64,000 nucleotides of DNA from a virus: IMG/VR virus record IMGVR_UViG_3300030385_002649, positions 62,001 through 126,000 of that record; one strand, 5' to 3'. Shown one piece after another: positions 6,173-45,273 of the stretch. The position numbers and the translations under genes are program-made. Position 1 is the stretch's first letter. The number at the start of each line of letters is the position of its first letter. The notes under the pieces were generated by a model. The model had not been told where the DNA came from and did no database searches. It worked only from the letters and a program-made list of their open reading frames with translations.

Positions 6173-7462
6173 ATGAGCACAGTAACAGAACAACACATGC
6201 TAATCTTCACAGATATCGACAATAACAATAACAAGTTTTGGGAGGGCGTCTTAAAGGATGACAACACTCTTACTTGTCGATGGGGACGGGTTGGAGAACG
6301 AGGACAAAGCCGCGATTTCTCCGGAGGAGCCAAGAAATTGGCAGCCAAGTTGCGTGAGAAAAAGCGCAAGGGCTATGAAGAGGCCATGATCCTTAAAGAG
6401 ACCGGCCCTGCAGTTAGTGTTGGGAAGAGCCGACTTAAAAAGGTCGCGGCCAAGCAGATTGATCACGGATCGTGCGCGGAAACATCAACTCTCATTGAAT
6501 TCCTGGTTAAAGTCAACCGACACCAAATTTCTGCTGCCTCTGGTGGTAAGATTTTCATCGATGACGACGACGGGCTGATCAGAACTCCTCTTGGGGTTGT
6601 CAACCAGGAAGCTATCGATGCTGCTCGGATCTTCCTCACGGACATTGGCGATTGCGTCCAAGTTAAGTCCTACACTACTAAAAAATGGAAGGAAGCGGTC
6701 AACAAGTTCACTAGGCTTATCCCCCAGGACGTCGGTCGTGGTAGGGGGTGGGATAAGAAACTCTTCCCTAACATCTCGGCTGTTCGAAAGCAGAATGATT
6801 TGTTGGATTCGCTGCAGACCACTCTCACTCACGTCTTGGATAACCCTGCCAAGACTAAAGCTGATGCGAAGGAGGAAGATGTCTTCAAGGTTAAGCTTGT
6901 CCCGTTGACTGATGATAAAGTTCTTTCTCACATTAGGAGCTTCTATTATAAGAGTGTGAAGAAGATGCACTCTAGTTATGGGATGAAAATCAGCCGAGCA
7001 TGGGTCGTGGACATCGAGACGATGCGTAAAAAGTACGAAACTGATGGGGCGGGGCTGAGCAACGTCTGGGAGCTTTGGCACGGTACAAAGGCTTCGAACG
7101 TCCTCTCCATCTTAAAGGGTGGCCTGGTTATTCCCCCATCAACAGCAGGTCACGTATGTGGTCGGATGTTCGGCGATGGTCTTTACTTCTCTGACCAGAG
7201 CACGAAGTCTTTGAACTATGCTACTGGTTATTGGGACGGGTCGTCGGAGGAACGTTGTTTCATGTTCATGTCGGACGTGGCGATGGGCGAGACTTACGTT
7301 CCTAAGTCGACCTATTGGGGTCAATCTAACACTAAGAGTTGTCCTAAGGGCTATGATAGCACGTTCGCTAAGGCTAACGTTTCTGGCGTTCAGAATAACG
7401 AAATGATCGTTTATAGGACTTCTCAGGCTAACTTGAGATTTCTCGTTGAATTCGTCCGTTAA
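6173..7462 (+). CDS. WGR-domain poly(ADP-ribose) polymerase-like ADP-ribosyltransferase
   Basis: The 429-residue protein has an N-terminal WGR domain (CRWGRVGERGQ around residues 35-45), a helical regulatory-like middle, and a PARP catalytic domain with the H-Y-E triad: His303 in LWHGTK, Tyr338 in GDGLYFS and Glu410 in NNEMIVY. Such enzymes use NAD+ to attach ADP-ribose; WGR domains bind DNA ends in eukaryotic PARPs. An intact H-Y-E triad predicts chain-forming ability. It has PARP2/3-like architecture without zinc fingers. It lies next to the CxC/WYS gene run and in the same region as another NAD-using enzyme, LigA. It could modify host or phage proteins at DNA breaks; the target is unknown. 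Confidence 0.9.
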   Translation: MSTVTEQHMLIFTDIDNNNNKFWEGVLKDDNTLTCRWGRVGERGQSRDFSGGAKKLAAKLREKKRKGYEEAMILKETGPAVSVGKSRLKKVAAKQIDHGSCAETSTLIEFLVKVNRHQISAASGGKIFIDDDDGLIRTPLGVVNQEAIDAARIFLTDIGDCVQVKSYTTKKWKEAVNKFTRLIPQDVGRGRGWDKKLFPNISAVRKQNDLLDSLQTTLTHVLDNPAKTKADAKEEDVFKVKLVPLTDDKVLSHIRSFYYKSVKKMHSSYGMKISRAWVVDIETMRKKYETDGAGLSNVWELWHGTKASNVLSILKGGLVIPPSTAGHVCGRMFGDGLYFSDQSTKSLNYATGYWDGSSEERCFMFMSDVAMGETYVPKSTYWGQSNTKSCPKGYDSTFAKANVSGVQNNEMIVYRTSQANLRFLVEFVR

Positions 7463-10590: not shown

Positions 10591-10885
10591 CTGCGAGCTA
10601 GAGGTAGAGGTTCTAGACTGTGGGTGGGTTTCAGACTTGCTAACGCATCTATACGTTCCAGCGGCAGAAATGGACATTGAGATTAGCCTGAATGAAGGAC
10701 TTATCAATGTCCAAGCATGGGGCGACGACAGTGTTTATAATTGTAGAGTATTTGACCCTCACGACATAGAGTTCATAGACGATCTAAGAGAATACTTGAT
10801 TCCTATGTGCGAAAACCATGAAGTACACATGAGGTACCCAGATGAAAAAAGCGGAAATAATCCAGAAGCTAGTAAAACACCTTAA
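10547..10885 (+). CDS. Hypothetical acidic 112-residue protein
   Basis: The acidic product is mixed alpha/beta with paired beta strands (CELEVEVLDCGW, INVQAWGDDSVYNCRVF). It overlaps the previous gene by 44 bases and ligA by 44 bases, so translation of all three is probably coupled. No recognised family. Position directly before ligA suggests co-expression with DNA repair, nothing more. Confidence 0.6.
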   Translation: MKLIPSIIKDLLKDSCELEVEVLDCGWVSDLLTHLYVPAAEMDIEISLNEGLINVQAWGDDSVYNCRVFDPHDIEFIDDLREYLIPMCENHEVHMRYPDEKSGNNPEASKTP

Positions 10886-12779
10886 CCGTTGCGACCTAGC
10901 CTATTACAACCAAACCCCACTCATCAGCGACCAAGACTACGACAAACTCCGAGACAAGCTAACCAGCCTAGACCCAAGCAACCCCTTCCTCGCAAAAGTT
11001 GGGGCTCCCGTCGTCACCACGGACGGACGAAGCAAGCACACACATAAATCGCTCATCGGGTCCCTTGCCAAGTGCAAGACCAAAGAAGAGTTCATGAAAT
11101 GGGCCGAGGGAAAGGGCCCCCTGTGCGTCAGCTACAAGTATGATGGCAGTACAGTAGTCGCCACCTACGAAAGCGGTACGCTGAAAACTCTAGCGACCCG
11201 TGGCGATGGCACCATCGGAGAAGATATCACGGACAATGCCGACCTGATAGGCTCAAAATCCAACACTTACCATTTCATCCCGAAGCAACTTACCTCCGAT
11301 TTTACCGGAGAAATCCGAGGCGAAGCTATCCTGCGTTTAGGTCGGTTTGAAGAGTTCTTCAAGCCCGCTGGTTACAAAAACGCCCGCAACGCCGCCAACG
11401 GAAAAGTCCGCGATATGAAGCGCGACGACCTGATCAAATGGTTGGAAGTGGTGTGGTTCGATATCATCCCCGAGGACCGTGATGTCAAGACTGAGGGAGA
11501 GAAATGGGCTCTCATCCAGGAACTTGTCAACGATGATCGCCCCACCACTAAGAGTCTCGCTATGGCTCAGATCCAGACTGACGCCGAGAAGGCATGGGAG
11601 ATCTTCGAGGAGGTCGGCAAGCTTAGGTCCGGCTTGGACTTTGAGATTGACGGTATAGTCGTCAAGGTAAACGATATTGATGACCAAGAGTCCTTCGGTG
11701 TCACTAGTAACCGGCCCAATGGGGCTATCGCTATCAAGTTCCCCTCTTTGGGAGCAGAAACCTTTTTGGAGAGTATCGAATGGAATCGTGGATTGACAGG
11801 GGTTTACGCCCCGACCGGGATCCTCAAGTCGGTAGATATCGGCGGAGTGACCATAGGAAGAGTCTCCCTGTGCGGCATGGACGAGATCCGCAGGTTGAAG
11901 ATCGCCCCAGGAGACAAGGTCTACATCACCCGGCGAAATGACGTCATCCCCAAGGTTGAATATGTCATCAATCGGACCCCACAGCCGGGGACCATCCGAA
12001 CTCCAGTTAAAGCACCTAAGACGTGTAATGAGTGTGACGCCGACCTGATCCAGAACGGATCCTACCTGATCTGCCGAAACCCGGACTGCCAGGGAGAGAT
12101 TTTCGGTAGTCTCATGACCTGGATTCAGCGTTTGAAGATTAAAGGGCTAGGGTCTTCAGTGCTCCGGTCCCTCATCGACGAGGGCGTCACGGACATCTGC
12201 AAGCTCTACGAAGCTCAAGAGGAAGTCTATGAAAAAGCAACAAGATCCTCAAAGCTTGCAGCTAAGCTCTACGCATCCGTGCAATCAACAACGGAAGTTA
12301 GACTTGGTACTTTCTTATCAGGGCTCTGTATACCGTCTCTCGGGGCTACAAACGGTACGCGGTTGGAAAAGCGATTTAATACGCTTGAAGCAGTTGTCGC
12401 AGCATCCGAAGAAGACCTGGAAGGAGTACCGGGCATCAAAACAAATGCTAAGAAAATCAGAGCAGGACTTGACGCTAAATCCGATCTAATCGAAGGATTA
12501 GCTAAGATCCTAACGATCAAGACTCTAGACACTAGTGGGCCTCTAGCTGGACACACTGTCTGTGTCACCGGGGATTTAACCGTCCCAAGGTCTAAGTTCC
12601 AAGATTGGATTAGGTCTCTAGGAGGGGAAGTTAAGTCGGGCGTCTCTAAGGACCTATCGTATCTTATAACTAACGCTCCTGCAAGCGGCACTTCTAAGAA
12701 CAAGAAAGCGGACAAGTATGGTGTCAGAAAGTGTACTGAAACGGATTTCTATAGTCTTATCGGGTCCTCGCCAGCCTAA
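10842..12779 (+). CDS. ligA: NAD-dependent DNA ligase LigA
   Basis: The 645-residue enzyme seals nicks using NAD+. An N-terminal domain Ia is followed by the adenylation motif SYKYDGST with catalytic Lys99, then an OB-fold, a Cys4 zinc finger (CNECDADL and CRNPDCQG), helix-hairpin-helix repeats and a C-terminal BRCT domain from about residue 565. It is full length for the bacterial family (about 670) and all key residues are present. Large phages usually carry either ATP- or NAD-type ligase; this is the NAD type, as is usual for jumbo phages. Its last 10 codons (YSLIGSSPA and stop) are duplicated after the neighbouring uvdE gene. Confidence 0.95.
   Translation: MKKAEIIQKLVKHLNRCDLAYYNQTPLISDQDYDKLRDKLTSLDPSNPFLAKVGAPVVTTDGRSKHTHKSLIGSLAKCKTKEEFMKWAEGKGPLCVSYKYDGSTVVATYESGTLKTLATRGDGTIGEDITDNADLIGSKSNTYHFIPKQLTSDFTGEIRGEAILRLGRFEEFFKPAGYKNARNAANGKVRDMKRDDLIKWLEVVWFDIIPEDRDVKTEGEKWALIQELVNDDRPTTKSLAMAQIQTDAEKAWEIFEEVGKLRSGLDFEIDGIVVKVNDIDDQESFGVTSNRPNGAIAIKFPSLGAETFLESIEWNRGLTGVYAPTGILKSVDIGGVTIGRVSLCGMDEIRRLKIAPGDKVYITRRNDVIPKVEYVINRTPQPGTIRTPVKAPKTCNECDADLIQNGSYLICRNPDCQGEIFGSLMTWIQRLKIKGLGSSVLRSLIDEGVTDICKLYEAQEEVYEKATRSSKLAAKLYASVQSTTEVRLGTFLSGLCIPSLGATNGTRLEKRFNTLEAVVAASEEDLEGVPGIKTNAKKIRAGLDAKSDLIEGLAKILTIKTLDTSGPLAGHTVCVTGDLTVPRSKFQDWIRSLGGEVKSGVSKDLSYLITNAPASGTSKNKKADKYGVRKCTETDFYSLIGSSPA
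12748..12777 (+). repeat. Left copy of a 30-bp direct repeat (ligA 3' end)
   Basis: This segment encodes the last residues of LigA (YSLIGSSPA). It matches 13757-13786 at 28 of 30 positions; both differences (12752 and 12758) are T/C changes that would be silent in the LigA frame. The two copies flank uvdE. Confidence 0.9.
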
Positions 12780-12824: not shown

Positions 12825-13748
12825 ATGGCCCTCGGATTATGCTGCCAATGGTTAGAAATCAAAAAAGGCAAACCAAAGAATGTGCTCATAAGCAGAAGTC
12901 TTCAATTGGGCCGTTTTAACAGAGGTGAATATAGTCGAGAAAAGATCAAGAAGACATTTATAGACAACCTTCAAAATGTCTTAGACGTTATGCCTAAGAT
13001 TGTAGCATCTGGGGTTCGTTCTCTACGCATTAGCAGTTCAATGTTTCCTCTTTTTGATAAAGTTGACAAAGAATTGGCTGAAAATAAAGAAACCGATTTG
13101 TTACTTGCTGAAATAGGTTCAATGGCATTAATCAATGGCGTTAGAATCACCACTCATCCCGCTCAGTTTACAGTTATTTCAAGCGATAACCCAAAAGTGG
13201 TTGATAATTCTATCCGAGAATTGGAGTATCACGCTTGGATGTTCGATAAAATGGGGCTTCCACAAACCCCTCATTATAGCATCAACATCCATGGAGGTAA
13301 AAGGGACCGAAAAACGCAATTGATATCAGGAATTGAACGTCTTAATGACTCAACTCGTCTCCGCTTAACCTTAGAGAATTGTGAATTTGCGTACAGTGTT
13401 AAAGATTTAGCGTTAGTTGCGAAGGACGTAAAAGTTCCCATTTGTTTTGATAGTCACCATCATCGATTTAACTCTTCGGACCTGTCTGGTGAAAAAGCCA
13501 TGGGTATAGCGATAAAAAGCTGGCCATCCGGCAGCAAACCCATGACCCATTTAAGCAATTCCAAACCAGAATATGTAGAAACTGATTCCGTCACTAAATT
13601 ACGAAAGCATAGTGATTATTTACATCAAGTTCCAGAATATCAATTAAAAGCTAACAACGATGGGTTGATTGATATAGAAATTGAAGCTAAAATGAAAAAC
13701 CTCGCCATCTTTAAAGCTGTAAATGATTTTGGTTTACAGCTTAATTAA
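12825..13748 (+). CDS. uvsE: UV damage endonuclease UvdE/UvsE
   Basis: The 307-residue product is a TIM-barrel UV dimer endonuclease that nicks DNA 5' of photolesions, starting light-independent excision repair. Family blocks appear in order: LRISSSMFP near 66, THPAQFTVISS near 107, HYSINIHGG near 148, LTLENCE near 176, CFDSHHHRF near 200 and THLSNSKPE near 230, providing the His/Glu/Asp metal ligands. Its length is normal. It is more AT-rich in codon choice than ligA (many TTA, AAT, GAA codons), and it is bracketed by duplicated ligA ends, so it was probably acquired by insertion. An AAAGGA site precedes the ATG. Confidence 0.92.
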   Translation: MALGLCCQWLEIKKGKPKNVLISRSLQLGRFNRGEYSREKIKKTFIDNLQNVLDVMPKIVASGVRSLRISSSMFPLFDKVDKELAENKETDLLLAEIGSMALINGVRITTHPAQFTVISSDNPKVVDNSIRELEYHAWMFDKMGLPQTPHYSINIHGGKRDRKTQLISGIERLNDSTRLRLTLENCEFAYSVKDLALVAKDVKVPICFDSHHHRFNSSDLSGEKAMGIAIKSWPSGSKPMTHLSNSKPEYVETDSVTKLRKHSDYLHQVPEYQLKANNDGLIDIEIEAKMKNLAIFKAVNDFGLQLN

Positions 13749-17026: not shown

Positions 17027-17524
17027 ATGACAAAATTCATGCTTTATCTGGTTGTCCCTTTTGTATTGTTATTTAGTTCGTGTTCAACGCAAGAATTATC
17101 TAGCGACTGGTACCCATTAACAACATTAGTTGAACGTCCGGACATTGGGAATGAACGTGTTGTCACAACCGTTTCCCCTTACCTGTATACCTCTAGCCTA
17201 GATTGGTTTAATGAGACCTATACTCCGGGTTCTGTCCCTTATGAGGCCCTCAGACGACACGAGGTGACGCACGCTAAAAGGCAAGAAGCTTCTTCTAGTA
17301 AGACGCTCTGGCTTCAACGTTACCTAACTGACAAAAAATTCCGATACGAAGAGGAAAAGGCCGGATATAAGGCTGGGATAGAGTATTATATCAAGAGCGG
17401 GTGGGCTGCGAGCCCCGAGGGCCTGGCAGAAACCCTGTCTGGAAAAGCTTACGGCAGTATGGTTTCCTACGATGAAGCCTTGATCTGGACTAAGAAGATG
17501 ATTGCAGATGCAAAAGCCAAGTAG
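17027..17524 (+). CDS. HExxH lipoprotein, paralogue 1
   Basis: The 165-residue product has a lipoprotein signal (lipobox LFSSC, Cys19) and a zinc-metallopeptidase-like motif RRHEVTHAKRQE with His78, Glu79 and His82; Glu87 could be a third ligand. A paralogue on the minus strand at 21709-22218 shares TVSPYxY, PGSV, HExxHAxRQE, TDxKF, EEKxGY and VSYxxALxW. It should sit in the outer or inner membrane facing the periplasm. It could be an endopeptidase that acts on the envelope or a receptor-masking lipoprotein. No close family recognised. Confidence 0.75.
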   Translation: MTKFMLYLVVPFVLLFSSCSTQELSSDWYPLTTLVERPDIGNERVVTTVSPYLYTSSLDWFNETYTPGSVPYEALRRHEVTHAKRQEASSSKTLWLQRYLTDKKFRYEEEKAGYKAGIEYYIKSGWAASPEGLAETLSGKAYGSMVSYDEALIWTKKMIADAKAK

Positions 17525-19317: not shown

Positions 19318-20619
19318 ATGGACAATGATATCTTAAAGATCGCCAGCATGTTGGGCGAAGACCCAGACGACATCAAGGAGATGGCACTCACTACAGGTGC
19401 CATTCCTGCTGGCCCATTTGGAGACGCTGGCTTCGTTAACAAGAAGAAGTCAAAGGCCAACAAAAAACGGAGCCGCAAAAAGAAGAAATCCGGATCCGAT
19501 AACAAAGAAGGTTCAGTTCTATACTCCGGAATAGAGGACGATAAGCACATCGAAGAGGCTAGCAGAGTAAAGAAACAAGTCGCCGCGCCGACAAGATTGA
19601 TGACTCCAGAAGAGAGAAAAGCGAAAAAGAAACAAGAGGTTAACCTTCACCTTAAGCAAAAAGCGCAACATCTATCCCCATCCAACATCAGAAGACCAAA
19701 TTCGATCATCTTCAACGGTGGGATCGACGTTAACCCAATGGAGGTTCCTGATTCCACTGAAATGCAAGGAATCAACGCTAGGGTAGAAAAGGCCGAAAGC
19801 TCACTTGGCGAATCATGGAAAAAACTCACTAATATCTTTAACGCCCTAAGACACTTAGAAATGTACGATGGCAAGATCCAGATCTTCGATAAGAACAAGT
19901 GTCACTTTTACAGACAATATCGAATCTTGAATGACATTTATTCCAGCGGACACTCAGCATATGAAGAGGCTCAAAATGAATGGGGCGGAGGGATTTCGCC
20001 GGGTCTAAGCATGCTTCCTCCCGTTAAAGGTTGGAGGGGGATCCACAATTGGAACAAAAACGCACTCGAACGTAGTCGCTACGTCAAGAATTACGTTCGT
20101 CAAATTGCTTACGTCTATTTGAAGCACATTGGTGAAAATGTTCTGATCACTCATATGGGCAGTTGCAGTAAAGCTGACTGTCTGAAATCCAACCACGCTC
20201 ATTTCCTTATTAAAGGATACTGCGATGGTTTCAAAGAGGACGGGCAAGTCTGGAATATGACTAGAGCGGTGAAAAAGGTATTCAAGATCCGCCAGAAAGC
20301 TCTGCAAGACTTCGCAGCTAAGAGAAGGAAGAAAAAGGAAAAACCACCAGCCCCTACTCTGAGCCCAGGAGACCAAGCACGCTATGATGAAGAAATCGCC
20401 ACTCATGGTAGGGTTAGAGGTGGACAAATGGCTTACGTCTTCCAAGACTACTATTATGACCTTATCCACAAGAACGATAAGGATGAGATGCCCGAAGTTG
20501 GCCCAGAAACTGCAGCCAAGCAGGGGCAAGCTCAAGCGCCTAACCCCACACAAGTTGACGAGTGGGCACCTTTTGATATCTCAGGGTATCTAACAGAAGA
20601 CCCGGATTTGTTTATATGA
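19318..20619 (+). CDS. Hypothetical 433-residue protein with TEDPD tags at both ends
   Basis: The protein starts ILKIASMLGEDPDD and ends ISGYLTEDPDLFI, the same short tag that ends two structural-module proteins at 38.5-39.8 kb. Between them are a Lys-rich segment (KKKSKANKKRSRKKKK) and a central domain (FYRQYRILNDIY, HIGENVLITHMGSCSKADC, SNHAHFLIKGYC). No known family seen. The tag suggests it belongs with virion or prohead proteins despite lying 18 kb away. Its stop overlaps the aminotransferase start (ATGA). Confidence 0.7.
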   Translation: MDNDILKIASMLGEDPDDIKEMALTTGAIPAGPFGDAGFVNKKKSKANKKRSRKKKKSGSDNKEGSVLYSGIEDDKHIEEASRVKKQVAAPTRLMTPEERKAKKKQEVNLHLKQKAQHLSPSNIRRPNSIIFNGGIDVNPMEVPDSTEMQGINARVEKAESSLGESWKKLTNIFNALRHLEMYDGKIQIFDKNKCHFYRQYRILNDIYSSGHSAYEEAQNEWGGGISPGLSMLPPVKGWRGIHNWNKNALERSRYVKNYVRQIAYVYLKHIGENVLITHMGSCSKADCLKSNHAHFLIKGYCDGFKEDGQVWNMTRAVKKVFKIRQKALQDFAAKRRKKKEKPPAPTLSPGDQARYDEEIATHGRVRGGQMAYVFQDYYYDLIHKNDKDEMPEVGPETAAKQGQAQAPNPTQVDEWAPFDISGYLTEDPDLFI

Positions 20620-21719
20620 TACCAGTATATCAGCCATGGCTAACATCTAAAGAAAAGAACAACGTCCACGAAGCAATGGAGTCAGGTTGGATCTCATCAA
20701 CCGGCAAATACGTGGAGAAAGCCGAAGAGTTATTCGCAGACTTTGTAGGAACGAAACACGCTATAACAACCACCTCCGGAACTACAGCACTTCATTTATG
20801 CTTAAGAGCAATGAAAATCGAAGACCCTAAGAAATACGTTATCGTCCCGAACATTACGTTCATTGCTACCGCCTTCGCCGCCTCTTATGAAAGGATGGGA
20901 GTATTGATTGCTGAAGTTGATCCAAGAACGTGGAATATCGATCCATTACAAGTTGAACATTTCTGCTCTAATTATGATGTCGCAGCGGTAATTCCAGTAC
21001 ATTTATATGGGAATCCGGCTGACATGATTGCGCTTAAAGTCCTACAGGAAACCTGGGGTTTTGCGCTGATTGAAGACGCTTGCGAGTCTCTTGGTGCCAA
21101 AATCGGGGATAAAATGACGGGTTCTCTGGGCGACATGTCTTGCTTCTCCTTCTACGGGAACAAGACCTTCACTAGCGGAGAAGGCGGGATGGTCACGACG
21201 GATGATGACGAGTATGCTGAAAGGGCTCGGTTGCTACGAGGACAGGCTCAGGATCCGAACAAACGCTACTGGCACGTGGACGTGGGTCACAATTATCGCA
21301 TGACTAATATCCAAGCGGCTATCTTATGCGCCCAACTTGAGAGAGCGGACCAAATACTAGCCGAGAAGAAAAGAGTCTCTGACCGCTACTTGGCTAACTT
21401 GGGCGACATGGACGAATTGAAGTTCCAGAAGGTCTTCGAGGACCATGAACACTCTAATTGGTTAGTAAGCACTGAGCTTCTAACCACTAAAAATCACATT
21501 TTCTCAACTTGGATGCGGGAGAACGGGGTAGACACTAGAAAAGTCTTCTACCCGATTTCTGACATGCCGACGTATAAGGACTGTGAAACGCGAGAGCCTC
21601 CCCGAATATCGAGGAGGCTCTCTGAGCACGGTGTGTCGTTTCCATCTTATCCAGAATTGAGCAATAAAGAGGTCGACCACATTTGTGATCTAGTAAAGAA
21701 CTTTTTACTTAAGGCTTAG
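20616..21719 (+). CDS. DegT/DnrJ/EryC1-type sugar aminotransferase
   Basis: This 367-residue PLP enzyme has the fold-type I blocks of sugar aminotransferases: TTTSGTTALHLCLRA near 51, VIVPNITFIATA near 75, LIEDACESLGAKIG near 151, and SFYGNKTFTSGEGGMVTT with the PLP-binding Lys183. These enzymes add an amino group from glutamate to a nucleotide-linked keto-sugar. It fits the surface-sugar island around it and could feed an amino-sugar pathway with the NeuD-like acyltransferase 4 kb away. Confidence 0.9.
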   Translation: MIPVYQPWLTSKEKNNVHEAMESGWISSTGKYVEKAEELFADFVGTKHAITTTSGTTALHLCLRAMKIEDPKKYVIVPNITFIATAFAASYERMGVLIAEVDPRTWNIDPLQVEHFCSNYDVAAVIPVHLYGNPADMIALKVLQETWGFALIEDACESLGAKIGDKMTGSLGDMSCFSFYGNKTFTSGEGGMVTTDDDEYAERARLLRGQAQDPNKRYWHVDVGHNYRMTNIQAAILCAQLERADQILAEKKRVSDRYLANLGDMDELKFQKVFEDHEHSNWLVSTELLTTKNHIFSTWMRENGVDTRKVFYPISDMPTYKDCETREPPRISRRLSEHGVSFPSYPELSNKEVDHICDLVKNFLLKA

Positions 21720-22218
21720 GATGCCATTGTCCGCTTCGTACCAGTCTAGCCCAAGTTAGAGCGTCCTCATAAGAGACAATCCCTCCAGTGAAGATCTTAT
21801 ACTTGGACAGCGCAGATGCGACATTTTCAGGTCGCAGTGAACCATCTAGTTTCATCTGGTGATAATACCCAATTTTCTCTTCCGCTAAAGCGAACTTAGC
21901 ATCCGTCATATATTGTCCGACCCAGGAGAAAACTCCTGTCTTCTCCTGGCGTTGTGCATGAATTCGTTCATGAGTCATGATAGACCTGAACTTCACAGAG
22001 CCGGGTGGCTTCAGCTTGAGGTAGTAATCGAGGTCCGTTACGTAACAATACGGGGAAACAGTGGTGATATTGGATTTGGAGGGAACGACCAATGCTGCCA
22101 TTTTAGAACGTTGTTTAATTTCCTTCAGGGGAAGCCATTCATCGTCCAGTTCGTAAGATTTAGCGTTGGTACAACCCGAGAAAACCAAGACTGCGAGAAT
22201 TAACAAATACTTTTTCAT
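21709..22218 (-). CDS. HExxH lipoprotein, paralogue 2
   Basis: The 169-residue lipoprotein (lipobox VFSGC, Cys16) has THERIHAQRQE with His83, Glu84 and His87. It is a diverged copy of the lipoprotein at 17027-17524 and conserves the same blocks along its length. It is the last gene of the minus-strand run that contains malate synthase and isocitrate lyase, 17 bases after the latter. A periplasmic-side metallopeptidase is plausible. It converges with the aminotransferase gene, overlapping 11 bases. Confidence 0.75.
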   Translation of the reverse strand: MKKYLLILAVLVFSGCTNAKSYELDDEWLPLKEIKQRSKMAALVVPSKSNITTVSPYCYVTDLDYYLKLKPPGSVKFRSIMTHERIHAQRQEKTGVFSWVGQYMTDAKFALAEEKIGYYHQMKLDGSLRPENVASALSKYKIFTGGIVSYEDALTWARLVRSGQWHPKP

Positions 22219-22235
22219 ATAGCACCTAGATATTT

Positions 22236-23522
22236 TTAGTGAAACTGTTCTGTTTCGGTTGAGCCTGCAAGAGCAGACGTTGATGGGTCCACGCCAATGG
22301 TTTTCTTGATATCGTCATAATATCCGGTACCAACAAATCCTTGGTGCTTGACAGCCTTGTAACCATCCGATTCCGCAAGAGCGAATTCTTCTTCCTGAAG
22401 AGTAGAGTACGCTGCCATTCCAGAATCTTTATAGTCATGAGCTAGCTTGTACATCGACGTGTTCAATGAGTGGAAGCCAGCAAGGGTGATGAATTGAAAC
22501 ACATAACCCATTTTGGCTAGTTCATTCTGAAATTCAGACAATTCTCCGGTCCGGTCCTTGTTAGATTCCCAATTGAAGGATGGAGAACAATTATACGCCA
22601 ACATCTTGTGTGGGTATTTGTCGTGAATTGCCGTGGCAAATTGACGGGCCTCTTCGAGGTCGGGTCTAGCTGTTTCTACCCATACCATGTCAGCGTAAGG
22701 AGCGTAAGCTAGACCTCTAGCGATTGCCATGTCCAACCCGCCAGTGACGCCATAGAATTGGCCTTGGCTTTCTCCGGTTAGGAAGGGCTTATCGCGGTCG
22801 TCGATGTCTGAAGTCATGAGTTTAGCGCTGTTGGCATCAGTTCTAGCAATGATCACAGTGTTAGCACCGACCACGTCTGCTGCTAACCTAGCGACTTTTA
22901 GTTTTTCGATGAATTCGCTGGTTGGGACTAGAACTTTACCGCCGAGGTGGCCACATTTCTTTTCGGAGGACAGTTGGTCTTCCAGGTGGACCCCTGCTGC
23001 TCCAGCTTCGATCATCCCTTTTACAACTTCGAAGGTGCACTGGACTCCGCCGAATCCGGCTTCAGCGTCAGCTACGATTGGCTGGACATAATTGTAACGG
23101 GGTTTCCCGTCTGTCTCTCCGAATTCGATCTGGTCTGCTCTTATCATGGCGTTGTTCAATTTCTGAACGTGGAAGGCCATGCTGTTGTTGGCGTAGAGGC
23201 TTAGGTCTGGGTACATCTGGCCGGACAGGTTGTTATCTGCGGCGACTTGCCATCCACTTGCGTAGACCGCCCTGAGGCCAGCTTGCGTCATTTGGATAGC
23301 TTGGTTTCCTGTTACTGCTCCGAGTGCTCTAACGGCGGGGCCTTCTTTTCGGAAGGCTTTTTGGCATTCTTTGTGCAATTGATCAGACATTTCCTCAGCT
23401 AGAAACCGTGGGTCTTTTGTGCCTCTCAGTCGGACGACATCTTGCTCGCTATAATCTCGTTGAACTTCTTTCCATCTGGGATCTGACCATTCGTTTTTTA
23501 AGTCTTCTGCTGATTTGTTCAT
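22236..23522 (-). CDS. aceA: Isocitrate lyase AceA
   Basis: The 428-residue enzyme splits isocitrate into glyoxylate and succinate. It has normal bacterial length and the signature KKCGHLGGK with catalytic Cys190, the metal-binding region VADAEAGFGG near 150-159, VHLEDQ at 178-183, and the typical C-terminal STETEQFH. The bacterial ICL1 type is the closest match by motif. It lies 8 bases after malate synthase in the order aceB-aceA, as in many bacteria. All key residues are intact, so activity is expected. It lets two-carbon units bypass the CO2-losing steps of the TCA cycle. Confidence 0.95.
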   Translation of the reverse strand: MNKSAEDLKNEWSDPRWKEVQRDYSEQDVVRLRGTKDPRFLAEEMSDQLHKECQKAFRKEGPAVRALGAVTGNQAIQMTQAGLRAVYASGWQVAADNNLSGQMYPDLSLYANNSMAFHVQKLNNAMIRADQIEFGETDGKPRYNYVQPIVADAEAGFGGVQCTFEVVKGMIEAGAAGVHLEDQLSSEKKCGHLGGKVLVPTSEFIEKLKVARLAADVVGANTVIIARTDANSAKLMTSDIDDRDKPFLTGESQGQFYGVTGGLDMAIARGLAYAPYADMVWVETARPDLEEARQFATAIHDKYPHKMLAYNCSPSFNWESNKDRTGELSEFQNELAKMGYVFQFITLAGFHSLNTSMYKLAHDYKDSGMAAYSTLQEEEFALAESDGYKAVKHQGFVGTGYYDDIKKTIGVDPSTSALAGSTETEQFH

Positions 23523-23530
23523 GGTTCTCC

Positions 23531-25033
23531 TTAAGCGGGGTTGTGTTGTTGAGAGTAAATGAGTTGTTTGGTTTCTTCGGCGGCTTGTCTTAGTGTAGCC
23601 TCTGTGCCCAGTTCGCCAGTATCATGTGCTAATGCGATGATCGAATCGAGTACTTGAGCGAAGCACTGTTCAACTTGTTTCTTGGAAACAACCTCGTGTT
23701 GTAGTCTTTGAGCGACCATCAGCCTGCAGATTCTGTCCGTCGCGAGGTCTTCCATATACCCATCGAGCAAGACGGCTCCTCTACCATTAATGACGCCATT
23801 TCGGTATCTTACAGACACTCGGATGCAGTCCTGGAGCCCTTCTATAGTCATCGGAAGTGGAGTGGCCCGATCCCACATATCTGAAACATCCAGAAGATCA
23901 GGGATCGGACAATCAGGAATAATGTCTAGCTGATTAAATGCCGGGAATGCGCCAACTGCGATGTCATTCTGATCCGGATGTCCAGTCCAAGCTCCATCGA
24001 ACCCACAAGAGGCTTCATTAGCCTTATCCTTAGCCAGAAGTGTCAAAGCTCGGTCGTTCAATTCCTTATCGGAACGGCTTGGGTAAAGAGCGGTCATCCC
24101 GCCGATAGCGAGAATCCCAAATTCGTGGCATGTTTGGACAAGGTGGTGACGGAGGTTCTGAAAGAAAGCAGCGTCGTGGGGGATGCTGTTTCGGTCTGGG
24201 AGGAGGAATTCCTTCTCGCTATTCCAATCGATCCAGCTAGCCATATAATCCCATCGGCCAAGATTTAAGCCAAGTAGATGGTCTCGCAATTGGCCGATGA
24301 ATCCTCTTAAGTCACATGCCATTGGGTAGGATTCTACAAGGGCCATACATTTGATGTAGTTATCTTCTAGACCAACGGACCTAGCGGCGTGTTTTAGCAC
24401 TTCTGACCACCAGGCAGCTTCGGCTGGGTGTTCAGTCTTTGGAATGTAAATGCATAATGGTTTGTCCATTAGGTCGGGTTTGATGCGCCAAACGAGGTTG
24501 GCGATATCGAAGAGCGGGGCTGAAGTCAATCTACCGTTCACAACTTGGGTTAGGTGTAAGCCTCTGACTCTGCTCCAGACGACTGGATTGCCCGTGATCT
24601 CGTGAGTCTCTCCTCTTTTTTCATAAGATAAGGAGCCATGTAGGGCTTGGACAATGTTATCGTACCCTGTTTGGAGGGACTCCCAATTGTTAGCCATGGA
24701 ATCCTCTAAGTCGAGCATAACGCCTGGCGACCCGGAGTTGATCATTTTAACAACTAGTTCAGCGCTATCCGCTGGTCCGGTCATTTGGTTTCTTTGGTCT
24801 CGACACCAGGTTGGAAGGCTTACTTTCCAGGTTGATTTGCGTCTTGGCGGGGAGCCCGCTTTTTCACATTCACCCCTGGCCTTGGGCTTCCAATCTGGGA
24901 ACTTTTTGGTGCGTTCTAGAATCTCTCTACGTTGTTCTATCGCTTTGAAGGCATGGGCGGAGAATTTACTGTGAAATGACTCGTAGAATTCTAGAAATTC
25001 TGGGTCTACTAAATTGCCAACGTTAGGTTTCAT
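23531..25033 (-). CDS. aceB: Malate synthase A (AceB)
   Basis: The 500-residue protein condenses glyoxylate and acetyl-CoA to malate. Seen blocks: VMLDLEDS near 105-112, SRVRGLHL with Arg157 in the RPRG-like site, the signature RDHLLGLNLGRWDY at 250-263, GFDGAWTGHP at 344-353, and GYMEDLAT at 425-432 with the catalytic Asp429. It is slightly short (the usual length is about 530), so it lacks a few N-terminal residues. Its ATG overlaps the preceding gene by 11 bases. It shares an operon with AceA, which makes its substrate. Confidence 0.94.
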   Translation of the reverse strand: MKPNVGNLVDPEFLEFYESFHSKFSAHAFKAIEQRREILERTKKFPDWKPKARGECEKAGSPPRRKSTWKVSLPTWCRDQRNQMTGPADSAELVVKMINSGSPGVMLDLEDSMANNWESLQTGYDNIVQALHGSLSYEKRGETHEITGNPVVWSRVRGLHLTQVVNGRLTSAPLFDIANLVWRIKPDLMDKPLCIYIPKTEHPAEAAWWSEVLKHAARSVGLEDNYIKCMALVESYPMACDLRGFIGQLRDHLLGLNLGRWDYMASWIDWNSEKEFLLPDRNSIPHDAAFFQNLRHHLVQTCHEFGILAIGGMTALYPSRSDKELNDRALTLLAKDKANEASCGFDGAWTGHPDQNDIAVGAFPAFNQLDIIPDCPIPDLLDVSDMWDRATPLPMTIEGLQDCIRVSVRYRNGVINGRGAVLLDGYMEDLATDRICRLMVAQRLQHEVVSKKQVEQCFAQVLDSIIALAHDTGELGTEATLRQAAEETKQLIYSQQHNPA

Positions 25034-25310
25034 CGTCTTCCTCTTTTTCGATAATTTTTAGAAACCCAATTTTGTGAGCTATTGCTGCCCACAGCTGATC
25101 ACATATTGGTGCATGTGCGACCTCTTGGTATTTCCCGGTTTTAATGTCTTTTCTTAGGGTTTTTAGGTCTAGAACGTTCTTAACTGAACGAGTTACTAGA
25201 ACGTTCTCTTCTTTTTCCACCCAGCCTTTGGGTGTTTCTACAGCGAAATGTCTCCCGTTTCGTTTTACAACTAGTAGGGAGATAGGTTTTGTGAACACCC
25301 ATTCTTTCAT
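25023..25310 (-). CDS. Hypothetical 95-residue protein
   Basis: A small alpha/beta protein (KPISLLVVKRNGRHFAVETP) with an acidic tail (EKEEDDET). It lies between the DUF4254-like gene (which ends at 25311, next to its ATG) and malate synthase (11-base overlap), so it is part of the same operon. No family recognised. Confidence 0.6.
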   Translation of the reverse strand: MKEWVFTKPISLLVVKRNGRHFAVETPKGWVEKEENVLVTRSVKNVLDLKTLRKDIKTGKYQEVAHAPICDQLWAAIAHKIGFLKIIEKEEDDET

Positions 25311-25751
25311 TTAGTAATTCTTCCATTTAGGCTGGTAGAGCTTTTTTTTCTCCTCTTCAGTCATAGAGAGTTGTTCGACGTTGAGCTTGTCGATTTCGTC
25401 CATTAGTTGGTTACGCTGAAGGTTGAGGTCGCACGCTCTTTTTAAAATATGGCGGACACGATCTGGGTCATCTCCAAATTCTTCAGCCCACTCGTCCGGG
25501 GTCATTCTGCGAAACCTGTAGAGGTCGTCTTGAGCGTGCCACATTCTTACAGTAACAATTGAAAGTTTGTCAGTTAAGGAGCCAATTGTGTCCATTTCTT
25601 CCCTCTTGCCTTCTAATTCTACCGGGTTGCACGGGCTGTCATTGAACAAATTATGTAGAGTGGAATGAAACCACTCTACAAGGTGCTCGGAGTCTAATTT
25701 TTTAACTGCTGCGCTCTCAGCGCGCTCTGCCAAAATTGAGTAGTTTAACAT
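25311..25751 (-). CDS. DUF4254-like protein
   Basis: The 146-residue helical protein has the features of DUF4254: TIGSLTDKLSIVTVRMWHAQ followed by DDLYRFR, and a later segment LKRACDLNLQRNQLMDEID. DUF4254 genes often sit beside surface-polysaccharide glycosyltransferases, consistent with this island. It is the first gene of the minus-strand aceB-aceA operon. The identification is by eye and needs a profile search to confirm. Confidence 0.6.
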   Translation of the reverse strand: MLNYSILAERAESAAVKKLDSEHLVEWFHSTLHNLFNDSPCNPVELEGKREEMDTIGSLTDKLSIVTVRMWHAQDDLYRFRRMTPDEWAEEFGDDPDRVRHILKRACDLNLQRNQLMDEIDKLNVEQLSMTEEEKKKLYQPKWKNY

Positions 25752-25769: not shown

Positions 25770-26438
25770 ATGGCTATGAAATCAGAATCTAAGATATTTA
25801 TTCTCGGTTCGAGTGGGTTCGCCCATGAAATTAAGGACTATTTCTTAGAGTATTACAGAGCTAAGAGACCGAAGGGGCAAATAGCGGACCTTTACGTTAA
25901 TCATGTTGGGTTGCACGAACCTGAGTTCTATTTTGTTGGTCCTGACGGCATGTCTGTGAAAGAATATCACGCGGCCCTAAATGCCAGTCTGTCCAAGCCT
26001 ACCTTCTCTATTATGGGGTCTGGCAAGTGTTCTGTTAAGATTAAAATGCTAGAAGAGATTAGGGGACATATTATTAGTATGGTGCACCCTACCTCGCATG
26101 TTATTTCCGCTAAGATCGGTTCTGGGAGCATCATTGCCCCCGGAAGCGTGGTAGCCCCTAGAGCGGTGGTCGGAGACCATTGTCTTGTAAATTACAACGC
26201 CACAATCGGCCATGATGCTATTGTTGGAGATCTATCTGTTGTGTCTCCTAACGCGTCTATCGGAGGATCTTGTGTGCTGGGTCGCGGTGTCCATATTGGT
26301 TCTAATGCTTCGGTACGAGAAGGATTAAAAATTGGTGAAGGCGCAACGGTGGGTATGGGAGCGGTAGTAATTAAAGATGTCCCCTCTGGTGTAACCGTCG
26401 TTGGCGTGCCCGCTAGAACACTTATAAAGGAGAATTAA
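25770..26438 (+). CDS. NeuD/PglD-type sugar acyltransferase
   Basis: The 222-residue protein has an N-terminal Rossmann-like half (FILGSSGFAHEIKDYF) and a left-handed beta-helix of hexapeptide repeats (IGSGSIIAPGSVVAPRAVVG, VGDLSVVSPNASIGG, IGEGATVGMGAVV). This is the NeuD/PglD layout; they acetylate amino sugars or sialic acids using acetyl-CoA. It begins 18 bases from a divergent gene. It fits the neighbouring aminotransferase and CMP-ulosonate genes. Confidence 0.85.
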   Translation: MAMKSESKIFILGSSGFAHEIKDYFLEYYRAKRPKGQIADLYVNHVGLHEPEFYFVGPDGMSVKEYHAALNASLSKPTFSIMGSGKCSVKIKMLEEIRGHIISMVHPTSHVISAKIGSGSIIAPGSVVAPRAVVGDHCLVNYNATIGHDAIVGDLSVVSPNASIGGSCVLGRGVHIGSNASVREGLKIGEGATVGMGAVVIKDVPSGVTVVGVPARTLIKEN

Positions 26439-26663: not shown

Positions 26664-27273
26664 CCTTCTACCTTACATAACTCCTGCGCTCAGTTTAGAA
26701 GACTCCATTGCTATAGTGGGTTCTAGTGGGAGACTGCTAGAAACCGATTTTGGTGATAGAATCGACAAATACGCAGAAATAGTAAGGTTTAATAGAGCCC
26801 CCGTAGAGGGCTGGGAAGCAAAAGTCGGATCTAAAACGACCCTAAGAGTTCTGAATAGGCCGACTTTTGCTTCTGCTCCCCTTCTTCGCTGGTCCGACGA
26901 CATTGAGTTCGCTAAAAAGATAAAAGATTCTAGGATCCTTGTTGGCGCTCATACTCAAGGTCTAGTAAAAGCAAGAGACAAATACGTTGACCCTAGTAAC
27001 GAATTATATGTGTTTAACCACGGAAAAGTGGTACAAGCCGCCCATAAAGCGAAATACATATTGACATCACCAACCATTGGATTCCAAATCGTCTTTCTGC
27101 TAGTTGCAGCAGGATTGAAACCCCACTTGTATGGTTTCGATTTTGAAGAAGGACGACCAAGAGACCATTATTGGCACGAACGACCACCTGGCTCTTGGTC
27201 TCACAATTTAGAAGCCGAAATGAAAGTAATGAGGGACCTAGTCTCCAAAGGAAAGGTTAATTTAATCCAATGA
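26659..27273 (+). CDS. GT29 sialyltransferase-like glycosyltransferase
   Basis: The reading frame is open from 26644, but no ATG lies before the conserved core. GTG 26716 would give 185 residues and cut the first beta strand (SIAIV), so ATT 26659 or another non-standard start is possible. The core shows an L-type sialylmotif (IAIVGSSGRLLETDFGDRI, then VRFNRAP and VGSKTT) and an S-type motif (SPTIGFQIVFLLVAAGLK, YGFDF, with HYWH and a terminal SHNLEAE). This is the eukaryote-like GT29 fold, which uses CMP-activated acidic sugars. It is 1.0 kb from the CMP-ulosonate synthesis genes, so it is the likely transferase for that sugar. Only a few bacterial or phage examples are known to me. Confidence 0.72.
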   Translation: MNLLPYITPALSLEDSIAIVGSSGRLLETDFGDRIDKYAEIVRFNRAPVEGWEAKVGSKTTLRVLNRPTFASAPLLRWSDDIEFAKKIKDSRILVGAHTQGLVKARDKYVDPSNELYVFNHGKVVQAAHKAKYILTSPTIGFQIVFLLVAAGLKPHLYGFDFEEGRPRDHYWHERPPGSWSHNLEAEMKVMRDLVSKGKVNLIQ

Positions 27274-27671: not shown

Positions 27672-28272
27672 AAGCGATTTTCTGGCCGCTGGCTGGAGCG
27701 ATAGATTCTTTCCAGTAAGTTATCTTATGCTCTGGCAGAGCTTCTTTAATTTGTTTTCGGCCAAGATGTAAACCATTAAGATAATTGCGAGCAGCGAAAT
27801 AATTCTTGCTCTCAACGACTTTATCGGCTAACTTAATCTGGATAGCGATATGCTTGGGTGAAAGTTCCCTCCACTTTTGGGACACTTTCACCCAATATTC
27901 GTATGAAGGAAAGTGCTGGATTACGGAATAGCACAAAATCAGGTCGATCTTGTCCTCGACTTCAACATCTTCGGGGTTTCCGACATGTATCGTCTTGCAT
28001 TCCTTGCCTATAAAACGTTGAGCCTCAGTTAAACTAGCCTCACTAATATCCACAAGAGTGACATCAAAATGTTGAGAAAGCTCTTTAGCCAAAAGACCGC
28101 CGCCACAGCCCCAGTCCAAGGCAGTTTTAACTTCATCAAGATCAATCTGACTCAATACGTGAGATCTAACCCTATTGATGTGATCAGCAACCTTTTTCAT
28201 GGGCATGTGATCCACAAAGTGCTTATGGTTTAGGGTGACTTTAGTGTCCCAGTGTTTTCTTAGTTTATCCAT
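27652..28272 (-). CDS. Class I SAM-dependent methyltransferase
   Basis: The 206-residue protein has the SAM-binding motif I (ALDWGCGGGLLA), motif II-like (VTLVDISEASL) and motif IV-like (ILCYSVIQHFP). The substrate is not defined by sequence. Its ATG overlaps the CMP-ulosonate cytidylyltransferase stop by 8 bases, so it may methylate the acidic sugar or its product. Confidence 0.8.
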   Translation of the reverse strand: MDKLRKHWDTKVTLNHKHFVDHMPMKKVADHINRVRSHVLSQIDLDEVKTALDWGCGGGLLAKELSQHFDVTLVDISEASLTEAQRFIGKECKTIHVGNPEDVEVEDKIDLILCYSVIQHFPSYEYWVKVSQKWRELSPKHIAIQIKLADKVVESKNYFAARNYLNGLHLGRKQIKEALPEHKITYWKESIAPASGQKIAFIVLTA

Positions 28273-28951
28273 TTAATATTAGCTCAGCAATCTTAAAATC
28301 TAGTAAAGTGTCGATATCGACAGAATCTTCTATAGGCATGTGGTAGTTCGCTACTCTACCTTTAAAGAAATTACGGTCTCTGATGAATGATTCCATTCTA
28401 CGCAAATAGATCGCACCGTTTGGCCTTATAACTGAAGAATGGTCTTGAGACCTAGTGTTTCCAGTTATAAAAGGCAAAGACTGGTCGGAACAATGAACGA
28501 AACCGTCTGGATCAACTACAAGCCCTAAAGTTGGTGGAAATTCATAGTCCGTTGTACTAATAACTCCGTCTAAACTAGGGTCTTCCTCTAACAAAGCCAT
28601 GGCATCCATCACATCCACTTGACCTCGAAACGGAGCAGTGGGAAGAAACAATCCAACAACATCGTAATCATTGTACTCTTGAGATGCGACAAGATTGATA
28701 ACAGTTTCAAGGACCGTCGACTTATCTCCTGATAAAGCAGCGCTACGCTTTAAAGGAGTAACCCCTTCTATAGATCCTCCTACTTTTAGAATGTCGTCAG
28801 AGTCTGATGTTAGGATGACCGTGTGCGCTTCATCAACGACGGCCTCTAGGGTCCACTGAATTAGCGGCTTTCCTCCTAGAGGCCGGATGTTTTTGCCGGG
28901 CAACCTTTTTGACCCACCTCGGGCGGGCACTATTGCTAGGAGCTTAACCAT
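28265..28951 (-). CDS. CMP-acyl-ulosonate cytidylyltransferase (NeuA/KdsB superfamily)
   Basis: The 228-residue enzyme starts LLAIVPARGGSKRLPGKN with the cytidylyltransferase signature, then GGKPLIQWTL. It is more like NeuA (CMP-sialate or related 3-deoxy-ulosonate) than KdsB, whose signature is PARYASTRLPGKP. It activates an eight- or nine-carbon acidic sugar with CTP. It overlaps kdsA by 16 bases upstream, so the two are one unit. The sugar is either Kdo or a related ulosonate. Confidence 0.85.
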   Translation of the reverse strand: MVKLLAIVPARGGSKRLPGKNIRPLGGKPLIQWTLEAVVDEAHTVILTSDSDDILKVGGSIEGVTPLKRSAALSGDKSTVLETVINLVASQEYNDYDVVGLFLPTAPFRGQVDVMDAMALLEEDPSLDGVISTTDYEFPPTLGLVVDPDGFVHCSDQSLPFITGNTRSQDHSSVIRPNGAIYLRRMESFIRDRNFFKGRVANYHMPIEDSVDIDTLLDFKIAELILNG

Positions 28952-29730
28952 TTCTGTGTTGCCAAAACCTTTTCAACTTCATCATAAGTCTTTATTAGAT
29001 TTTCGACTTTATCCAGGTACAACTGGCAGTCTCCATCAGAAACAGCCTTCCGAGGCTCCGGGTGGCATTCAGCGAAAATACCGCTATACTCATAAGCGAG
29101 AGAAGCGATCATATACTTAGCGGCAAGTTCTCTGTCCCCACCGGTAAAATCGCCCTTTTTGCGTTGAGTAGAGTGGGTGCAATCTAGGATCACTCTATCA
29201 TAGTGCTTCGACATTTCTTCGGCAGCGCCAAAATCAACGATTAATTGATTATACCCAAAGAACGTACCTCTTTCAGTGATCCAAACTTCACAGTCAGGGT
29301 TCTCGGCTTTTACCTTGCCAACAAAGTGTTTCGTGCTGTCCGGATTAATCCATTGGCCCTTCTTGATGTTCACCTTGTCGAAGCATTTTCCGGACTCGAT
29401 TAGAAGGTCGGTTTGGCGGCACAGAAAGGCTGGGATCTGGCATAGTTCGACGCCTTGGTCGGCAATGAGCTTAGCTTGATGACACTCGTGGATGTCCGTG
29501 GTCAGTCTAATTCCTGGAAACTCTTCTCGGACTTTTTCCATTAATCGGAGGGACTCGTCGATACCAGGACCCCTACCTCCATCAACTGCGGTTCTGTTGG
29601 CCTTGTCGAAAGAAGCTTTGTAGTACCAGTCTCTCCCATCCATGAACTTGGTTAGTTCTTCGGCACACTTCAAGTAAAGATGCTCGTTTTCCATGGAGCA
29701 TGGCCCCAAAATCCAGACTTTATCCGACAT
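28936..29730 (-). CDS. kdsA: 3-deoxy-8-phosphooctulonate synthase (KdsA), metal-dependent type
   Basis: I chose the start MSDKVWILGPC at 29730, which gives 264 residues; an upstream in-frame ATG would add 11. The enzyme condenses arabinose 5-phosphate with PEP to Kdo-8-phosphate. Blocks: GPCSMENE with Cys11, KASFDKANRT, GPGIDESLRL, TTDIHE, QIPAFLCRQTDLL, VNIKKGQW and ITERGTFFGY. Cys11 in the GPC position is the metal ligand of class II KDO8P synthases; metal-independent enzymes have Asn there. The C-terminal metal ligands His and Asp also appear (AECHPEP). It overlaps the aldolase gene by 11 bases. Confidence 0.9.
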   Translation of the reverse strand: MSDKVWILGPCSMENEHLYLKCAEELTKFMDGRDWYYKASFDKANRTAVDGGRGPGIDESLRLMEKVREEFPGIRLTTDIHECHQAKLIADQGVELCQIPAFLCRQTDLLIESGKCFDKVNIKKGQWINPDSTKHFVGKVKAENPDCEVWITERGTFFGYNQLIVDFGAAEEMSKHYDRVILDCTHSTQRKKGDFTGGDRELAAKYMIASLAYEYSGIFAECHPEPRKAVSDGDCQLYLDKVENLIKTYDEVEKVLATQKWLSS

Positions 29731-30637
29731 ATGAATCCCATCTTCTTTCAATATCATCAACAACGCCTCTTACTCTGAGTTGTTGTTCTCTTGTAACTTC
29801 GCTAAAAGGCGCCCTATTTTCAGTAGGCAGCAATTGTTTATAATTTAGAGCGGATTGCAACGCTTTATGCCATCCGATTTTCTTGAACACATTAAACAAA
29901 GGTTCTTCAAATTTAGTAACAATGTCGTGTGCTACCGCCAAATCACCAGCCGTAAACTCTTCCAAAAACCGGTCTTCAATTTCAGGAAAAATGTTTCCAA
30001 TCCCGCCAAGGAAAGTCTGCGCACCAGCGGGCCCTGTCAGCAAGAATCTCCTGCAGCTACCGCCAGCGGGGAAGATGAGAAAATCATCATCGGCCAATCT
30101 AGAAACATCATAGGCGAGCGCGAGCTTAGAACTTTCCTCTTTCATGCCTATGATGTTAGGGTGTTTTTTCAGTTTTTCGACTATTTGTGGTGTATAATCG
30201 TACATGCCGCCTAGAGCGTGTCGCATAAACATTCCGTGAATCATAACTGGCACTTCAGAACGGTCAGCGGCCCAATAGAAGTAATTCACAACGCTTTCAT
30301 CGTCGTAATACCTGTCAGGATAAAACAGGAGAATCGCATCTGGCTTGATTGCGTTAGCGAACTCTAGTTCTCTAGATAAGTGTTTGTTAGCTAATGGCGG
30401 GAGACCCATAATGAACGAACCTTGAAACTCTGAGCATAGCTCGTTCATTTCTTGGAGTTCAAATTCGTCCAGCAAGTTAAATCTTGTAGTTCCGGCTGTT
30501 GTTAGGATTGTTTTGGCTCCTTCTCTGTGAAGGTAATTGAGGTATCCTTTTATAGAGGCGCTGGACAATTCCCTTTCGCTAAATGCGGGGGGAATTGGAT
30601 ATATAACGCCTTCGCTCAATTTTTCAATGTTGGACAT
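29720..30637 (-). CDS. DapA/NanA-type class I aldolase
   Basis: This 305-residue TIM-barrel enzyme forms a Schiff base at Lys166 in NIIGMKEES. GTTRFNLLDEFE near 50 is the altered GTTGE loop. The conserved YN after the strand near residue 133 (as in PxLLYN) is replaced here by IH (VPVMIHGMF), so a catalytic Tyr seems to be missing. N-acetylneuraminate lyase or a 2-keto-3-deoxy aldolase is plausible. It is co-transcribed with KdsA and a HAD phosphatase, so it may make or remove a pathway intermediate. Confidence 0.72.
   Translation of the reverse strand: MSNIEKLSEGVIYPIPPAFSERELSSASIKGYLNYLHREGAKTILTTAGTTRFNLLDEFELQEMNELCSEFQGSFIMGLPPLANKHLSRELEFANAIKPDAILLFYPDRYYDDESVVNYFYWAADRSEVPVMIHGMFMRHALGGMYDYTPQIVEKLKKHPNIIGMKEESSKLALAYDVSRLADDDFLIFPAGGSCRRFLLTGPAGAQTFLGGIGNIFPEIEDRFLEEFTAGDLAVAHDIVTKFEEPLFNVFKKIGWHKALQSALNYKQLLPTENRAPFSEVTREQQLRVRGVVDDIERRWDSYVG

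Positions 30638-43974: not shown

Positions 43975-45272
<1,298 letters not shown>

Positions 45273-45273
<1 letters not shown>

Follow-up and report, generated by a model that had tools for sequence, protein, structure and literature searches.

Here we report that the genome of a large phage carries, side by side, genes for the two enzymes specific to the glyoxylate bypass, isocitrate lyase (aceA) and a malate synthase A-like protein (aceB), and that this pair is probably an auxiliary metabolic operon with which the phage diverts isocitrate and retains acetyl-CoA carbon for biosynthesis. The window analysed is the whole 64-kb stretch that spans bases 62001 to 126000 of a virus record 370,804 bases long, and positions refer to it unless another sequence is named. 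A phage aceBA operon has been known since 2017 (Nishimura et al. 2017, PMC5332604); what is new here is its occurrence in a 371-kb phage, a separate malate synthase lineage and a census of viral carriers. Phage genes that reroute central carbon metabolism reveal limits on virus production, and in the bypass the alternatives are clear and can be tested: carbon is either burned or kept.

Gene arrangement and phage origin

The aceA gene (22236-23522, minus strand, 428 amino acids) and the aceB gene (23531-25033, minus strand, 500 amino acids) both have intact reading frames. Their coordinates bear out the first-pass annotation of this DNA, which placed the two genes eight bases apart on the same strand with aceB followed by aceA, let the start of aceB overlap an upstream frame by 11 bases, and set a gap of 17 bases between aceA and an HExxH lipoprotein gene. 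The upstream frame (25023-25310, minus strand, 95 amino acids) has no family match, and the frame next to it (25311-25751, minus strand, 146 amino acids), with a weak match to DUF4254 that stays under the cut-off, probably opens the leftward gene run. A ribosome-binding site for aceA (AAGGAG, 23527-23532, minus strand), read from the sequence, overlaps the aceB stop codon (23531-23533), and one for aceB (GAGG, 25040-25043, minus strand) lies six bases 5' of the aceB ATG, within the upstream frame. Spacing and ribosome-binding sites together suit co-translation, judging from the sequence, and the pair can be called an operon in the sense of adjacent genes on the same strand with a layout of this kind.

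The putative lipoprotein encoded 3' of aceA (21709-22218, minus strand) has a paralogue at 17.0 kb (17027-17524, plus strand), as had been proposed; the relationship is genuine (37% identity, E 3e-30) and ties the flank of aceA to the rest of the phage. Neither of the two proteins matches a family in Pfam, PHROGs or NCBIfam. The aceBA genes sit within a surface-glycan gene cluster, which also includes an aldolase, glycosyltransferases and methyltransferases. Annotated in this neighbourhood are a LegC/PseC-like sugar aminotransferase of the DegT family (20616-21719, plus strand; Pfam, NCBIfam), a NeuD-like hexapeptide acyltransferase (25770-26438, plus strand), a GT29 sialyltransferase-like protein (26716-27273, plus strand; Pfam E 3e-19) close to the gene of a PseF/KdsB-like CMP-sugar synthetase (28265-28951, minus strand), and a KdsA-like 3-deoxy-8-phosphooctulonate (KDO8P) synthase (28936-29763, minus strand), a consumer of phosphoenolpyruvate. 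Elsewhere, the window encodes a poly(ADP-ribose) polymerase with WGR, regulatory and catalytic domains (6173-7462, plus strand; catalytic domain Pfam E 5e-27), which is unusual on a phage, a full NAD-dependent DNA ligase (10842-12779, plus strand) beside the gene of a UV-damage endonuclease, UvdE (12825-13748, plus strand; Pfam E 8e-48), and a collagen-repeat protein adjoining a tail gene (43975-45273, minus strand).

The description of the DNA as a phage genome was borne out by the rest of the record, which encodes a gp23-type (T4-type) major head protein (E 8.5e-80), a portal protein (phrog_213, E 3e-68) and a terminase large subunit (E 2e-30; L009:5747-9439, minus strand, equivalent to G000 165747-169439), together with a ribonucleotide reductase, a tail protein and a virion structural protein; a tail sheath was not detected in the record with PF04984. 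The 1230-amino-acid terminase frame also matches an endonuclease family and appears to hold an endonuclease-like insert, possibly an intein. The aceBA genes thus lie on a genuine phage genome, as is expected of auxiliary metabolic genes.

The main alternative raised by the first-pass annotation was chimeric assembly, in which a piece of bacterial DNA with aceBA would have been fused to phage sequence; the contig comes from an environmental assembly. Several observations point away from this alternative: codon use of both genes agrees with that of the other window genes (z-scores +0.18 for aceA and +0.23 for aceB), the 4-mer distance of aceBA is average for the window, the flank of aceA holds the paralogue of a gene 5 kb off on the same contig, and aceBA is seen again on independent phage contigs, including one (L234) with the same malate synthase subtype. 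Moreover, the nearest bacterial malate synthases share only about 50-56% identity with the window AceB, which forms a long separate branch, unlike a recent host fragment. Because codon use and 4-mers fit the contig, the flank holds a paralogue and the pair recurs on other viral contigs, a chimeric join or host contamination appears unlikely, and as an account of the whole locus we give it a very slight probability.

The two enzymes

Both proteins are full length with the catalytic residues that had been named for them. AceA matches the Pfam ICL family (PF00463) with E 6e-104, passes the cut-off of the NCBIfam isocitrate lyase equivalog (NF011645; 615.2 bits, cut-off 562) and aligns with isocitrate lyases of the PDB over nearly its full length (residues 7-428). 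In its KKCGH catalytic motif, Cys190 and His192 are invariant in comparison with Salmonella AceA and two phage AceA sequences. Methylisocitrate lyase was rejected as an assignment, since the NCBIfam scores fall far under the cut-offs of those models.

AceB meets the domain cut-offs of Pfam (PF01274, E 5e-47; PF20659, E 9e-9) and matches solved malate synthase A proteins in sequence comparison; its score against the malate synthase A equivalog of NCBIfam (TIGR01344) is 258.8 bits, under the cut-off of 594.5, and it is therefore termed malate synthase A-like here. The catalytic and metal residues Arg157, Glu234, Asp262 and Asp429 are invariant in alignments of 27-28 sequences from bacteria and phages, and the protein represents a divergent subtype with the marker motif DQRNQMTGPAD. 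An AlphaFold model (mean pLDDT 87.3, pTM 0.87) has its best PDB matches in the malate synthase A proteins of E. coli and B. anthracis (TM 0.82-0.84), and the malate synthase A fold is thus predicted to be intact. PHROGs contains no family matching AceA or AceB, and the predicted viral structures of BFVD gave no convincing match to AceB.

The long branches of the window sequences in both protein trees and the score of AceB under the equivalog cut-off would agree with genes that are inert passengers or whose products have changed substrate. This explanation has little probability in our view, given that all catalytic residues tested are invariant and the frames open, that AceA lies over the isocitrate lyase cut-off and far under those for methylisocitrate lyase, and that the modelled AceB retains its fold.

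The first-pass annotation had spoken of a complete glyoxylate bypass. This holds for the two bypass-specific enzymes and not for the whole cycle, as citrate synthase was undetected in the record; none was detected in any of the 44 records examined, the present one included. AceK, the isocitrate dehydrogenase kinase/phosphatase that belongs to the operon in its enterobacterial form, likewise had no match in the present record or in 22 other aceBA records. Its absence is not unusual, because among 14 control genomes only that of E. coli was positive. With citrate synthase and AceK undetected, the phage has to rely on isocitrate from the host, and on either the host or enzyme dose for control of the branch point.

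Occurrence in other viruses

A search of viral databases for adjacent aceB-aceA, which had been suggested as a check, returned 49 other IMG/VR contigs. A scan with single sequences found nothing, and alignment-based queries were needed. These confirmed at least 492 isocitrate lyase stretches in IMG/VR, of which 80 were kept, and 53 malate synthase loci, to which a further scan added L234. The two genes are adjacent and on the same strand in 49 of the 55 malate synthase loci examined, and in 44 of these 49 pairs aceB precedes aceA. Nine of the contigs with adjacent aceBA have a terminase or gp23 match (G001, G003, G014, G023, G026, G028, G032, G041 and G048), a marker test that is uninformative on short contigs, and some contigs may be bacterial. 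The implied uniqueness of the pair did not survive these results, nor the literature: besides the aceBA operon published in 2017 (PMC5332604), aceA and aceB were reported from ocean viromes in 2013 (PMC4053976), and viral isocitrate lyase appears in later virome studies (PMC10721903; PMC12783922). The aceB-aceA pair is far more common in viruses than has been reported.

Isocitrate lyase alone is commoner still. Among 35 records bearing this enzyme, malate synthase was found only in three carriers already known, and about 30 viral contigs with isocitrate lyase, some longer than 300 kb, have no detectable malate synthase; among the matches listed, gp23 occurs in eight records with isocitrate lyase only, the longest of 337 kb. 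In GenBank, the only convincing phage with isocitrate lyase is C48C1 (OQ984149.1, filed under Kyanoviridae), in which the gene (L020:14995-16236) is annotated as hypothetical. Most other strong AceA or AceB matches filed as phage in GenBank were rejected, as they appear to be misfiled Salmonella or E. coli sequence. The many contigs without malate synthase indicate that selection in many phages is not for the full bypass.

These carriers bear on a second reading of aceBA, in which succinate or glyoxylate would be the wanted product, meeting a need for energy, redox or glycine, and the malate synthase would merely clear toxic glyoxylate. The frequency of isocitrate lyase without malate synthase, also in gp23-bearing jumbo phages and C48C1, speaks for it, and raised expression of glyoxylate genes has been taken as a means of energy supply (PMC7082346). 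However, the present phage retains both genes in a co-translated layout, the order B-A prevails in 44 of 49 adjacent pairs, and phages with isocitrate lyase only could use the malate synthase of the host. We therefore consider this reading rather unlikely, though worth keeping in mind, and prefer that of an operon that saves carbon. With pairs on dozens of viral contigs and isocitrate lyase on more, the branch point appears to be the object of a recurring phage strategy and not of a single curiosity, and the census yields several independent enzyme sets for testing.

Phylogeny

A phylogeny of both proteins had been proposed in the first-pass annotation, and its outcome differed between the two. 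In a tree of 128 malate synthases, 43 viral sequences group with the Salmonella type, and the window AceB and the viral sequences of L104 and L234 fall among those of Acidobacteriota, Vulcanimicrobiota, Eiseniibacteriota and related bacteria. A smaller tree computed with a mixture model kept the split of the two types (support 100/100) and left the window AceB as a long branch on the margin of the bacterial sequences; a single clade of the three viral sequences (window, L104 and L234) was neither demonstrated nor rejected (AU p 0.57). The two viral malate synthase types are clearly distinct by sequence, and that of the window, the Acidobacteriota/Vulcanimicrobiota type, was found on only two further phage contigs. 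In the AceA tree, the window protein sits on a long branch amid viral sequences and is left unplaced. Another candidate, L103, was rejected as a phage relative, since its malate synthase groups with Vulcanimicrobiota and the locus looks chromosomal, beside a prophage. In L104, glycosyltransferase-like frames with long intein-like inserts (L104:2172-5045 and L104:7422-9824) were seen by eye near the malate synthase gene, and a GIY-YIG-like frame follows that gene.

We lean towards the view that there were two or more captures of the bypass pair by large phages: one involved a Salmonella-like malate synthase, which T4-like phages commonly carry, and another an Acidobacteriota-type enzyme, present in a distinct set of large phages to which this one belongs; bacterial sampling around the Salmonella-type sequences was minimal, and the number of captures depends on it. 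If two captures took place, the glyoxylate branch point would be a repeatedly selected and largely uncharacterised target of phage takeover.

Proposed role

Under the favoured reading, aceB and aceA would have been acquired from bacteria by a jumbo tailed phage whose capsid protein is of the T4 type, and would be retained as co-translated genes. In the infected cell, AceA would convert host isocitrate to succinate and glyoxylate, and AceB would form malate from glyoxylate and acetyl-CoA. Isocitrate would be drawn from isocitrate dehydrogenase and the two CO2-releasing (decarboxylating) steps would be bypassed, and the acetyl-CoA carbon saved as four-carbon acids could enter nucleotides, amino acids and sugars, perhaps also the surface glycans encoded around aceBA. 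We infer expression of the genes, activity in the infected cell, this direction of flux and a benefit to the phage. Carbon for biosynthesis and growth on acetate or fatty acids are both plausible roles of aceBA. In Pseudoalteromonas infected with phage HP1, the aceA and aceB genes of the host were the top-expressed TCA genes and rose about threefold (PMC7082346), which makes a role of aceBA in infection credible and phage-carried copies reasonable. No paper with a biochemical characterisation of any phage isocitrate lyase or malate synthase was found in the literature searched.

The glycan genes around aceBA also suit a proposal that Nishimura et al. made together with surface-sugar genes, namely that the pair aids the fitness of a long-lived or pseudolysogenic infected host; LPS and capsule genes are reported for their phage as well. 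In the annotated parts of the present record no integrase or lysogeny gene was identified, and KdsA-type genes are rare in other phages with isocitrate lyase or aceBA (2 of 46 records), which leaves this proposal improbable here. The same count led us to reject the idea that phages generally carry the pair to provide phosphoenolpyruvate for KdsA-type sugar synthesis; a link to KdsA would be at most specific to the present phage. Almost none of the other window proteins match the 10-kb flanks of other viral loci with isocitrate lyase or aceBA, and neighbours that are not conserved lend no support to one particular use of carbon. This lack of conservation, the viral contigs with isocitrate lyase only and the score of AceB under the TIGR01344 cut-off are the points that count against the diversion of isocitrate for biosynthesis, which nevertheless remains our preferred explanation.

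Comparison with known systems

The aceBAK operon of Escherichia coli and Salmonella has the same enzymes in the order aceB then aceA, but includes AceK, undetected in the phage record, and its malate synthase is only 34% identical. Closer in malate synthase subtype, and often with an adjacent aceA, are the genes of Acidobacteriota, Eiseniibacteriota, Vulcanimicrobiota and relatives; these lie on bacterial genomes and share 46-56% identity, whereas the phage copy occupies a long separate branch.

Among viruses, the published T4-like marine genome TARA_ERS478052_N000008 (Nishimura et al. 2017), compared here by its published description only, resembles the present phage in being a large genome with an aceBA operon, T4-like structural genes and surface-polysaccharide genes, for which NeuA, KdsA and WaaG are listed (PMC5332604), and differs in its size of 179 kb against 371 kb here. 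IMG/VR contigs such as L023/G001 (201 kb), L061/G014 (267 kb) and L098/G023 (178 kb) carry the same pair, mostly in the same order, and several have gp23 and a terminase, but their malate synthases belong to the other lineage, their AceA is about 55-61% identical and their flanking genes differ; in the gp23-bearing aceBA contigs found here, the malate synthase is Salmonella-like and shares only about 29-34% identity with the window AceB. The viral contig L234/G048 (3300038379_000173, 167 kb) differs in that its enzymes are only 44-51% identical, gp23 was not detected and the glycosyltransferase neighbourhood is another one, although its aceBA genes also lie, by eye, among glycosyltransferase-like frames. 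It shares with the present phage the malate synthase type and an aceA directly downstream, encodes a terminase and a DnaB-like helicase, and has distant homologues of some two dozen proteins from the present record (E <1e-5); a remote relationship between these two large phages is possible.
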